Positions 27,941 through 36,604 of a stretch of DNA of 64,000 nucleotides are shown piece after piece. The DNA lies in NCBI RefSeq assembly GCF_001281045.1, contig NZ_CP012622.1:558001-622000 (forward strand), in the 5' to 3' direction. The position numbers and the translations under genes were made by a program. This stretch comes from Spiroplasma cantharicola. GTDB taxonomy: Bacteria; Bacillota_I; Bacilli_A; Mycoplasmatales; Mycoplasmataceae. Each line of letters begins with the position of its first letter. Position 1 is the stretch's first letter. The notes beneath the pieces are model-generated. The model worked only from the letters and a program-made list of their open reading frames with translations, ran no database searches and was not told the origin of the DNA.

Positions 27941-28693
27941 TTACAGATTGTAAACAATATAACTCATTAAATACATAATTAAAGAACTTCTTGTTGATTC
28001 TAAAAATGTTCCACGCTCTCAATAATCAACAGTAATAATTTGACTATATTTATCAAATTTATGTTCTTGTGATGGAGAACAGATAATAAAAATATTATCT
28101 GTTTTAGTTTTAAGTAAATTATAAAAATTAATAACGTACTGATTATCTAATCCAAAAGCAATTATTAAAAAAGTATCTTTATTTGTTACTCTGTTAACTC
28201 AAGTTTCATTTAATTTTCTTTGATAGTTAAAATGACCATTATATCCTAGTAAATTTAATTCACTTATAAATAACTCAGTATTAAATAATTGTTGATAACA
28301 ACTAATAGCATAAATATTTTTTGCCTTTTTAATGGAATTAATTAATTCCATTATTTTATTTTCCTGAGTATCAATAAAATTAAGAGAATTGTCTATTAAA
28401 TTTCTATAAGAGTTTTTATTATTTTGACCAATGTTAGTTAAAGAAGATCAATTATAATATTCAGTTTCAACTTTAATTCTTATTGCCAATTCCTTAAATC
28501 CATCATATCCATATTTTTTTGCAAACGCTGTAATGACTGATTCAGAACAAAAACTTTCTTTTGAACATTCATTAATTTTAGGCGTTTTTTTATTTTCAAT
28601 ACACTCAAGCAGATAATTTGCAATAGATACATGAGTTTGGTTTTCCAAATTTGCTTTTATTAAAATCAATTTTTCTTTAATACTTTTGAACAT
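27941..28693 (-). CDS. RpiR/MurR-family transcriptional regulator
   Basis: A 250-residue sugar-responsive regulator. The N-terminal helix-turn-helix of RpiR type is visible as SESVITAFAKKYGYDGFKEL (about residues 52-71). The C-terminal half is a SIS-like sugar-phosphate-binding domain (KKAKNIYAISCYQQLFN, then TFLIIAFGLDNQ). It is divergent from the 6-phospho-beta-glucosidase gene, 118 bases away, and most likely controls that operon in response to a phosphorylated beta-glucoside. Three TGA codons encode Trp. Confidence 0.83.
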
Positions 28694-32007: not shown

Positions 32008-32757
32008 ATGAATAAATTTAAATGAAAAAATCCGTTGCATATTTGTATCTTATTAGTTTTATCTTTTTGTATTATTTTTAATTTTTCAACACCAAAAATT
32101 AACTATGAAGTAAATAAAGTTAATACAAAAGAAAAAGTTATTATGATAACTTTTGATGATGGACCAAGTTTAGCAGATGAAACTATTTTAGATATTTTAA
32201 AAGAAAACAATGCAAAAGCTACTTTTTTTGGAACAGGTATTAATTATGAAAAATATTGAAAAGATGAAAAAGTAAAAGCAATTACTGACAGAATGGTTAA
32301 TGAGGGTCACACTTTAGGAAATCATTCATATTATCACAATAAGTATCAATTTAAGACAAAGTCTGCTTATGATGAGTTTTATAAAACAAGTGACATGATA
32401 GTTAAAATTTATGCAGAAAATAATATACCTAAAACAATAAGTGATGTCCCAATAAGAATGCCATTCTTGCAATATTATCGAGGGATGGATTATTTACAAA
32501 GTAAAATGCAAGTTGAATATTTTGTAAGAGGTTACTTAGGTTGTGATTATGATGAAGCAATCTGTGGAAAAGAAAAAATTTTAAAACAGTATAAAAGTAA
32601 TATAAGACCAGGTCAAATATTAGTTTGTCATACAAGAGATTATGCAAAAGAATGACTTCCTGATCTTTTAAAACATTTAAATGAAAAAAATTATAAAACG
32701 GTTAATTTCACCAATGGTGATCAAGACTATAGAAATTATGGGGGATTAATATTCTAA
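32008..32757 (+). CDS. Polysaccharide deacetylase (NodB-like, carbohydrate esterase 4)
   Basis: A 249-residue protein with an N-terminal membrane anchor or signal (LHICILLVLSFCIIFNF, residues 10-27) and an extracellular NodB domain. VIMITFDDGPS (about residues 45-55) carries the catalytic/metal Asp pair, and LGNHSYYHNKY (about 104-114) carries the two metal His. The later R-x-P motif reads IRMPF and RPGQILVCHTRD holds the final His. Family members deacetylate GlcNAc polymers. In a wall-less cell the substrate cannot be own peptidoglycan; a host glycan or capsule is inferred. Three TGA are Trp. Confidence 0.88.
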
Positions 32758-33044: not shown

Positions 33045-33074
33045 GCAATTTTATTATTTAAATTTTAAAAATAT

Positions 33075-33106
33075 AAAAAAACAATAATTAATATTATTGT
33101 TTTTTT
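33075..33106 (+). terminator. Terminator of the deacetylase operon
   Basis: AAAAAAACAATAAT and ATTATTGTTTTTTT are perfect arms with a four-base loop, running into T residues. Confidence 0.75.
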
Positions 33107-33109
33107 ATA

Positions 33110-33161
33110 TTAAAGTACTTTAAGTAAGTTAAAGTACTTTAATTTTTCTAAATATTATAAT
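33110..33161 (+). promoter_or_regulatory. Promoter with two identical 14-bp palindromes
   Basis: TTAAAGTACTTTAA occurs exactly at 33110-33123 and again at 33129-33142, 19 bases centre to centre. TATAAT lies at 33156-33161, so the second palindrome covers the -35 position. This is the layout of a repressor or activator with tandem operators controlling the surface-protein gene at 33190. Confidence 0.6.
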
Positions 33162-33189
33162 ATAAATAGAATATTTTGAGGGGCAAATT

Positions 33190-35835
33190 ATGAGAAAAAT
33201 TTTTAAACCTTTAGCAATCATTATATTAATTATCGGACTTATCTTTTTAACATTTATGTATGCATTACCAAAGGGCAAAGATAAGAAAGTACAAGAGCAA
33301 AATTTTGTTATGAATCATGGTAATAAGGACTGACATTGAATTGAAAATTGAGAACAATATAATAAAGATCATAAAAATTTTGAAATTTATTCAAATAATA
33401 CTGACATTGCACATGTTACTGAAAAAGTAATTCATGATGATGGAAAATTTGAATTAAATGCAAATAGTGTTGGTCAAACTTTTCTAACTTTAGTAGGATC
33501 AACAAAAAATTCAAATTTAGAAAAAAAATGAATATTTCCAACTGAAATTTATGAATCAGTAGAGCCTGAAAAAATTAATATTGAGATATCAAATAATAAT
33601 TCAAGTATTGAAACTGGTAATACTGATTCTTCAATAGTAATTAAAAATTATTTAAGTTTAAGTAATCTTAGTATAGAGTCTACAAATAAAAATATTGCAA
33701 CAGTATTTAATGATAATGAAATTATTCATATATCTGCAATTGCAGAAGGTGAAACAAAAATAATCGTTAATGCTGATAACGCTATTAATCCTGTTGAAAT
33801 AAATGTTATAGTAAATAAAAAACTATTTGATATTGAATTATCAAATGATAATATCAATCTCCAAACTGAGGAAATTAATTCTTCAATTAGTATCAAAAAT
33901 TATAAAAGTTTAATGAATGTAAGTGTTAAATCTAAAAATAATAATGTAGTACAAGTAACAAATGAAAATGAAATTATTAAAGTAACAGCACTTGCAGAAG
34001 GTGAAACAAAAATAATTGTTAACGCTGATAACGCAAAAAGTCCTATTGAAATAAATGTTATAGTAAATAAAAAATTATTCGATATTGAATTATCAAATAA
34101 TAAAATTAGTATTGAAAATGGTCAGACTAACTCTTCAATTATTATTAAAAATTATAAAAATTTAGAGAATGTTAATGTTGATATAAAAAATTCAAAAATA
34201 GCTTCAGTTATTAATGAAGGAGAAGTTGTTAAAGTAACAGCGCTTGCAGAAGGTGAAACAAAAATAATTGTTAACGCTGATAACGCAAAAAATCCTGTTG
34301 AAATAAATGTTACAGTTACAAAAAAATTATTTATTATTGAATTATCAAACAATAATATTAGTATTGAAAATGGTCAAGCTAGTTCATCAATAAAAATAAA
34401 AAATTATGAAAGTTTAAATAATGTTAGTGTGGAATCTAAAAATATTAATGTGGCACAAGTAACAAATGAAAATGAAGTTATTAAAGTAACAGCGCTTGCA
34501 GAAGGTGAAACAAAAATAATTGTTAACGCTGATAATGCAAAAAATCCTGTTGAAATAAATGTTATAGTTACAAAAAAATTATTTAATATTGAATTATCAA
34601 ACAATAATATAAGTGTTGAAGCAGAAAAAACTGATTCAACTATATCAATAAAAAATTTTGAGGATTTAAATAATGTTTCTTTCAAAATAACTAATGAAAA
34701 AAATATTAACGTTACAAATGAAAATGAAATTATTAAAGTAACAGGACTTGTAGAAGGTGAAACAAAAATAATTGTTAATGCTGATAATGCAATTACTCCT
34801 GTTGAAATAAATGTTATAGTTACAAAAAAATTATTTAACATTGAATTATCAAATAAAGAAATTAGTATTGAAGCTGGTCAATCTGATTCAATAACAATAG
34901 AAAACTATAATAGCTTAAAAAATATTAATATAGAATCTAAAAATTCAAAAATTGCCTTAGTAATTAATGAATCAAATAATATAAAAATATCTGCAATTGC
35001 AGAAGGTGAAACAAAAATAATTGTTAACGCTGATAATGCAATTACTCCTGTTGAAATAAATGTTATAGTTACAAAAAAATTATTTAACATTGAATTATCA
35101 AATGATAATATTACTTTGGAAAGTGGTCAAACTAATTCATCAATAAGAATAAATAATTATGATAGTTTAGTTAATGTAGGTATTAAATCTAAAAATAATA
35201 ATGTCGCAGAAATAAAAAATGAAAATGGAATTATAAAAATATCTGCACTTGCAGAAGGTGAAACAAAAATAATTGTTAACGCTGATAATGCAAAAAATCC
35301 TGTTGAAATAAATGTTATAGTTACAAAAAAATTATTTAACATTGAATTATCAAACAATAATATAAGTATTGAAGCAGAACAAAATGATTTAATAACAATA
35401 GAAAACTTTGAAAATTTAATTAATGTAAGTATTAAATCAAATAATGAAGATATTATTGGAGTAGTTCATGAAAATGAGAAAATTAAAATTGAAGGACTTG
35501 TAGAAGGTGAAACAAAAATAATTGTTAACGCTGATAATGCAAAAAATCCTGTTGAAATAAATGTTACAATTACAAAAAAATTAATTGATATCAAAGTTAA
35601 TAAAACTAAAGTTAAAATTAGAGTAGGAAGTGCATTGACAAAAATAAAAATATTAAACTATGAGGATTTAGAAAATCCAGAAGTTAAAAATAGTTCTTCA
35701 GGTTTAATTACAGTATCTGTTAAGGAAGATACAATTTCAATTAAGGCACTTCTTATAGGAGATGCAACTATTACAGTTAATGCTGATAATGCCAGAGAAA
35801 TTGTTAAAATAGAAGTAAAAGCAAGATTGATTTAA
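33190..35835 (+). CDS. Large surface protein with nine Ig-like (Big_2-like) repeats
   Basis: An 881-residue protein with an N-terminal hydrophobic anchor (residues 7-28, no lipobox Cys) and an outward-facing repeat region. Residues 30-126 are unique and contain several TGA Trp. From about residue 127 to the end are nine units of 83-84 residues. Each has a K-LF-IELSNNNISIE strand, an Asn-rich middle, and a very constant AEGETKIIVNADNA-P-EINV segment, matching the bacterial Ig-like group 2 pattern. The last unit is more diverged and ends the protein. GAGGGG precedes the ATG. Adhesin or surface-coat role is inferred. Confidence 0.82.
33568..35835 (+). repeat. Nine in-frame tandem DNA repeats of about 252 bp
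   Basis: The motif GAAGGTGAAACAAAAATAAT recurs at 33745, 33997, 34249, 34501, 34753, 35002, 35254 and 35503, a period of 252 or 249 bases. The stretch encoding the constant half of each unit is nearly identical in DNA, while the other half varies. Such repeats can gain or lose units by recombination. Confidence 0.9.
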
Positions 35836-35845
35836 ATTTGATTTA

Positions 35846-36604
35846 TTAATTTTTATAGTCTATTAAAGTAGATAAATATTTATATAAATTAATTAGAAAA
35901 AAATTTATTCCATTTATATTTGATTCATAATACTTTTGGTCCAAAAATAATTTATTATCAATTAATTCAAAATTCTTTTCTCATAAATATGTATATAAGA
36001 TAAAAATATTATTTTTATCTATTTTATTTTTTAGGAACTCATAAGCATTATATAAACTTTCGGTTTCATTTCCTGTGAAAATAAAAATGTAGGAATAATC
36101 AAGAAAATGAATTTGATTTAAATTATTTAAATTTTTTGATAAATCAAAAATGTTAGTTTTATAATTTTTTTGATTTAGTAAATCAGAAAGAAATATTGAT
36201 GAGAAAGAAGTTTCATATGAAGACATTATTACAATTTCTTTATTAGCTTCTAAAACTCGTTTTTTAAATAGATCTATTTTAAAATTTGTATTTTTTGTAA
36301 AATTTGTAAAATTAATAAAAATTTCAGATATCTTACTTGTTTTGCTTTTCTTTATATCAATGAAGTTATTTTTATATTCTAGTTTTAAAATAATAACTAA
36401 TTCTCGATATCCAGAAACTGAAACAGTCTTTGAGAAATTTGTAATTGTAGCTTCACTTACATTGCAAATTTTAGCTAATTGCTTTTGTTTTTTAAAACTA
36501 TTATTTCAAAAATCTTTTAAAATTTGTTGACTTACAATTTTAAAAGTATTATTTAAATCATTTTTACTTATTTTTTCAATTTTTTTATATAGTAATTCAT
36601 TCAT
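35846..36604 (-). CDS. Second RpiR-type transcriptional regulator, diverged
   Basis: A 252-residue protein. The N-terminal helix-turn-helix KQLAKICNVSEATITNFSKT (about residues 40-59), followed by VSGYRELVIILKLEYKN, aligns with the regulator at 27941-28693. The C-terminal part keeps a SIS-like layout (EANKEIVIMSSYETSF, then SYIFIFTGNETESLY) but is shorter and poorer in conserved residues. No sugar operon is adjacent; it is convergent with the repeat surface-protein gene, 10 bases apart. Two TGA are Trp. The ATG at 36604 has only a weak ribosome site. Confidence 0.72.

Follow-up and report, generated by a model that had tools for sequence, protein, structure and literature searches.

Twin palindromes conserved at a Mollicute surface-protein promoter form an operator-like element with an RpiR-family protein as putative binder

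The closest described counterparts of the element reported here are the DNA targets of RpiR-family regulators and, at the level of RNA, intrinsic terminators. NanR of S. pneumoniae, an RpiR regulator, was crystallized on the DNA TCTGAAAGTACTTTTAGA (PMC12713135; PDB 9dqn). It reads its 18 bp site mostly indirectly, replacement of Arg67 by Ala abolishes binding, and it acts as an activator, whereas the other described RpiR proteins are repressors (PMC12713135). Its role is in sialic acid catabolism, where it activates from single sites of 18 bp that lie well ahead of the -35 box. MurR of E. coli, another RpiR protein, is proposed to form a tetramer that bridges two adjacent sites over the promoter boxes, leading to repression (PMC12713135); its target is cell-wall recycling, and its sites differ in spacing and sequence from those described below. 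Rho-independent terminators of AT-rich genomes consist of an inverted repeat, a short loop and a U-rich tail, which the present element shares; unlike them, its arms are perfect palindromes with the same sequence in each species, and a single copy of the 14-mer stands at another promoter.

The window, by which we mean the whole 64-kb stretch of DNA analyzed, was read with genetic code 4 and belongs to a Mollicute genome (G000) that forms a single contig and points, by its gene content, to Spiroplasma. Its relevant features are as follows.

33110 to 33123, no strand: palindrome 1, TTAAAGTACTTTAA, an exact match, 14 of 14 positions kept in three species, center near -51
33124 to 33128, no strand: 5-bp spacer GTAAG, the loop of a possible RNA hairpin, 0 of 5 positions kept in three species
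33129 to 33142, no strand: palindrome 2, TTAAAGTACTTTAA, over the -35 position, an exact match, 14 of 14 positions kept
33156 to 33161, forward strand: predicted -10 box TATAAT of the surface-protein promoter, called from sequence, 6 of 6 positions kept in three species
33190 to 35835, forward strand: gene for an 881-aa surface protein with a Big_2 (Ig-like) domain, orthologs in G014 and G016
35846 to 36604, reverse strand: RpiR-family regulator, best candidate binder, on the basis of its HTH_6 domain, its contact residues and NanR as the nearest solved structure
27941 to 28693, reverse strand: second RpiR-family regulator, a weaker candidate, with HTH_6 but Lys at the Arg67 position, divergent from a glucosidase-PTS gene pair

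The surface protein has a hydrophobic anchor at its N-terminus and repeats in which the motif GETKIIVNADNA appears eight times. Its gene and that of the RpiR protein at 35846 are convergent, with 10 nt between them. The gene for a membrane-anchored polysaccharide deacetylase (32008-32757; Polysacc_deac_1, 3e-25) lies two genes before that of the surface protein; it is kept in three species, and the bacterium is presumably wall-less.

The ten central bases of the repeated palindrome, AAAGTACTTT, are identical to the center of the NanR crystal DNA. The full 18-bp near-palindrome of NanR is unmatched at this locus; the flanks differ, with T instead of G beside the core. The arrangement is also unlike that of NanR, in that two sites stand 19 bp apart, one of them over the -35 position, in front of a surface-protein gene. 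A first-pass annotation of this DNA had stated that no candidate regulator is known for the site, which was too strong, because an RpiR target with the same core has been structurally characterized in another genus. Among the papers listed for AAAGTACTTT, that on NanR (PMC12713135) was the sole relevant one, and the 14-mer TTAAAGTACTTTAA gave no match in the literature. The C-protein boxes of Mollicutes were rejected as a match, their motifs being different, and an array of AAAGTACTTT in two viral contig fragments of the SPO1-like phage type was judged unrelated. In one such SPO1-like fragment (L108:1755-1815), three AAAGTACTTT-like palindromes precede a thymidylate-synthase-like gene.

Within the window, TTAAAGTACTTTAA was found exactly twice, at 33110-33123 and 33129-33142, with 19 bp from start to start, and no third exact copy was found there. 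This agrees with the first-pass description of two identical perfect palindromes at 19-base spacing, the second over the -35 region. A single 14-bp palindrome says little, because the number of perfect ones in the window (27) is close to that in simulations (21.8, s.d. 4.5); an identical pair no more than 40 bp apart, by comparison, arose in 0 of 300 simulated 64-kb windows. Across the genome (1,179,577 bp), TTAAAGTACTTTAA has four exact copies in three places, and its reversed control has none. At up to two mismatches the genome holds 85 matches versus 109 for the control, so these degenerate matches are noise; one-mismatch sites are mostly intragenic. Wide scattering of the motif, which the first-pass annotation had named as an adverse outcome, is therefore not what the genome contains, with three places only.

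Among 20 genomes of the genus, G014 and G016, the two nearest relatives of G000, are the only others in which the pair precedes the orthologous gene, with its 19-bp register unchanged. Across these three species the two palindromes are invariant (28 of 28 positions), as against 0 of 5 positions in the spacer and 24 of 50 in the 50 bp upstream; between palindrome 2 and the -10 box, 11 of 13 positions are kept. The remaining exact TTAAAGTACTTTAA matches in the genus fall within other genes. The surface-protein gene itself is restricted to the same three genomes, apart from a 35%-identical match in G007, upstream of which the palindrome site is absent. A search for the exact pair (spacer 3-8) in named species genomes, a set that possibly leaves out the species itself and very near genomes, gave none, and a protein search of named genomes found no relative.

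An unlinked exact copy of TTAAAGTACTTTAA (G000:820342) stands 112 nt ahead of a gene, here called gene 2, whose 526-aa product has an N-terminus resembling a signal sequence and matches no Pfam family. Its orthologs carry the exact 14-mer in G014 and a one-mismatch copy in G016, at a distance of 112-113 nt throughout. At this second site the three species agree at 13 of 14 positions, compared with 22 of 50 on the upstream flank and 15 of 35 on the downstream one; a 37%-identical homolog in G012 lacks the site. The third place is an exact copy at G000:284845, before a gene for a 531-aa protein that is present throughout the genus; this copy is conserved in neither G014 nor G016, and it may be due to chance. 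Adjoining gene 2 in G000 is a likely defense island (L006:5443-11955), with genes for a helicase/Z1-like protein that matches MzaC weakly, a cytosine methyltransferase and three other proteins; the G014 locus lacks this set. Nearby, a divergent promoter that serves a MarR-type regulator on one side and an ABC exporter on the other (L006:1099-1232) contains the strongly conserved repeats TTATTTCAAAT and ATTTGAAATAA.

At the surface-protein promoter a -35 box at 17-bp spacing would fall on 33133-33138, which reads AGTACT, the core of palindrome 2, and no recognizable -35 hexamer was found there. In S. melliferum, promoters have a pronounced -35 hexamer, and the distance from the -10 box to the start is usually 6 nt (PMC5138195). 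If that distance holds here, transcription would start near 33168, and the palindromes would be centered near -32 and -51. This arrangement suits a repressor. At gene 2, 35-37 nt separate the end of the site from a TATAAT-like box, which puts its center near -55 and rather fits an activator; this difference in position between the two genes counts against the operator model.

Together, these observations suggest that the palindromes probably act as a genuine switch controlling two surface genes, because they are kept in relatives, recur at the gene for a second secreted protein and match the target of NanR, a sugar-sensing regulator. The first-pass proposal that an accessory surface gene is under specific control thus gains support from the three-species footprint and the second conserved target. 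That annotation recognized the pair correctly and overlooked both the second target gene and the terminator-like RNA hairpin that the pair can form. On balance, we read the pair as an operator of the RpiR family, most likely for the protein at 35846, that would tie the surface protein and the second secreted protein to sugar supply. Each palindrome would be bound by one dimer, so that two dimers or one tetramer would sit side by side over the -35 position and the region upstream. The regulator would most likely be the convergent protein, whose C-terminal domain presumably senses a sugar phosphate; sugar supply would then act on the surface protein and, through one upstream site elsewhere in the genome, on the second secreted protein. 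At the surface-protein promoter repression is slightly favored and activation is possible, and the same element may also terminate upstream transcripts. We infer from sequence the binding itself, the regulator involved, its effector and the direction of control.

The protein at 35846 falls under suspicion because the core equals the DNA bound by NanR and because it retains most NanR contact residues. Specifically, it scores 33.0 bits with Pfam HTH_6 (cut-off 28.3) and keeps Ser50, Ala52, Thr55, Lys59, Tyr66 and Arg67 of NanR, so that most DNA-contacting HTH residues are common to both. Residue 56 is Arg in NanR and Asn here, and the flanking base touched by Arg56 is likewise changed (T at this locus). 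Its nearest solved structures are those of NanR (3.3e-5 with a profile of its relatives). With a low-confidence model (pLDDT 63 overall, but about 90 for large parts of the HTH), the top matches are NanR and further RpiR proteins, and full-length RpiR structures rank first at a TM score of about 0.4. Pfam finds no SIS domain, and the low-confidence model shows strands alternating with helices; the protein may, like NanR, combine HTH_6 with a sugar-isomerase-like C-terminus. Its orthologs (80% identity) occur only in the three site-bearing genomes, the next best match being 39% identical; this co-occurrence is weak evidence, because the three close relatives share the whole neighborhood. In a phylogenetic tree, the protein and its two orthologs adjoin a PTS-linked RpiR group. 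No copy of TTAAAGTACTTTAA was found at its own promoter, which, like the mostly indirect readout and the longer site of NanR, speaks against the operator model. These results lend indirect support to the first-pass suspicion against this protein: convergence is confirmed, the core is identical to that of the NanR DNA and the contact residues are mostly retained, making it, as far as sequence can tell, most likely the best candidate. The second suspect, 27941, does carry HTH_6, but Lys replaces the essential minor-groove Arg67, residues 56 and 66 are Ala and Phe, and at its own promoter another sequence is conserved, one that contains an imperfect inverted repeat.

The operator could instead serve another protein, either an RpiR paralog such as that at G000:842194 or a regulator from outside the family, which we consider rather unlikely. 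G000 encodes about 12 RpiR-like genes, several of which also retain Arg67, and the 842194 type retains Ala52 as well; proteins of this type, however, are present in G012, G011 and G006, all of which lack the sites. A MarR-type gene does lie near gene 2 in G000 and G014, but the promoter it shares with the exporter has different conserved repeats.

A serious rival, though an unlikely one, is that the pair is simply an intrinsic terminator of the upstream genes, with a 14-bp RNA hairpin, a 5-nt loop, a U-rich tail and arms whose palindromic nature is incidental. The predicted RNA, with a stem of 14 bp or longer, folds at -12 to -17 kcal/mol in the three species, no shuffled sequence being equally good; a U-rich tract follows in all three, and the gap in G014 and G016 holds no other terminator-like structure. 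However, a hairpin requires neither self-palindromic arms nor strict sequence conservation, no compensatory changes in the stem were found among the three species, and the same 14-mer is single and conserved at gene 2, where nothing folds. The stem is also poor in G+C (2 of 14 pairs are G-C), and a consensus scan detects no terminator. Moreover, G000 already has a separate terminator-like inverted repeat with a perfect 19-bp stem (33070-33111), which adjoins palindrome 1 and is missing from G014 and G016.

Family-wide AGTACT pairs at the same register are mostly terminator-like hairpins, which favors the terminator; the 19-bp register alone therefore proves nothing, and the AGTACT pair at 19 bp was dropped as an RpiR signature. 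For the same reason, TAAGTACTTTACAAATTGTAAAGTACTATA, an inverted repeat that separates an RpiR gene from a glucosidase gene (L092:4135-4209; G000:666181-666207) and has AGTACT cores 19 bp apart, is ambiguous between operator and terminator. The sequence TTAAACTACTTTAA after the RpiR gene at G000:509817 was rejected as an operator, being part of a terminator-like repeat. Another conserved terminator-like repeat, possibly an attenuator, is flanked by an RpiR gene on one side and a PTS gene on the other (L051:1555-1605).

A functionless chance repeat is very improbable: single palindromes are about as frequent as expected and the copy at G000:284845 is unconserved, but no simulated window contained an identical close pair, and the footprint spans three species.

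The operator and terminator roles may coexist. We tentatively extend the operator model, in a form that we hold to be doubtful, to a clade-specific RpiR sugar-phosphate sensor with PTS-linked kin that has been turned to a surface and secreted regulon, its operator doubling as the upstream terminator; one 33-bp element would then both insulate and regulate the promoter. To judge from sequence, the element is a real and conserved, operator-like part of a small surface-protein regulon, with an RpiR protein as its most likely binder. To our knowledge, little is known about the regulation of surface proteins in wall-less bacteria, and binding sites have been defined for few regulators of Mollicutes. 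Because the target (14 bp), both target genes and a candidate protein can be named, a link from sugar to the cell surface becomes testable. If true, RpiR control would reach beyond sugar catabolism to surface proteins.
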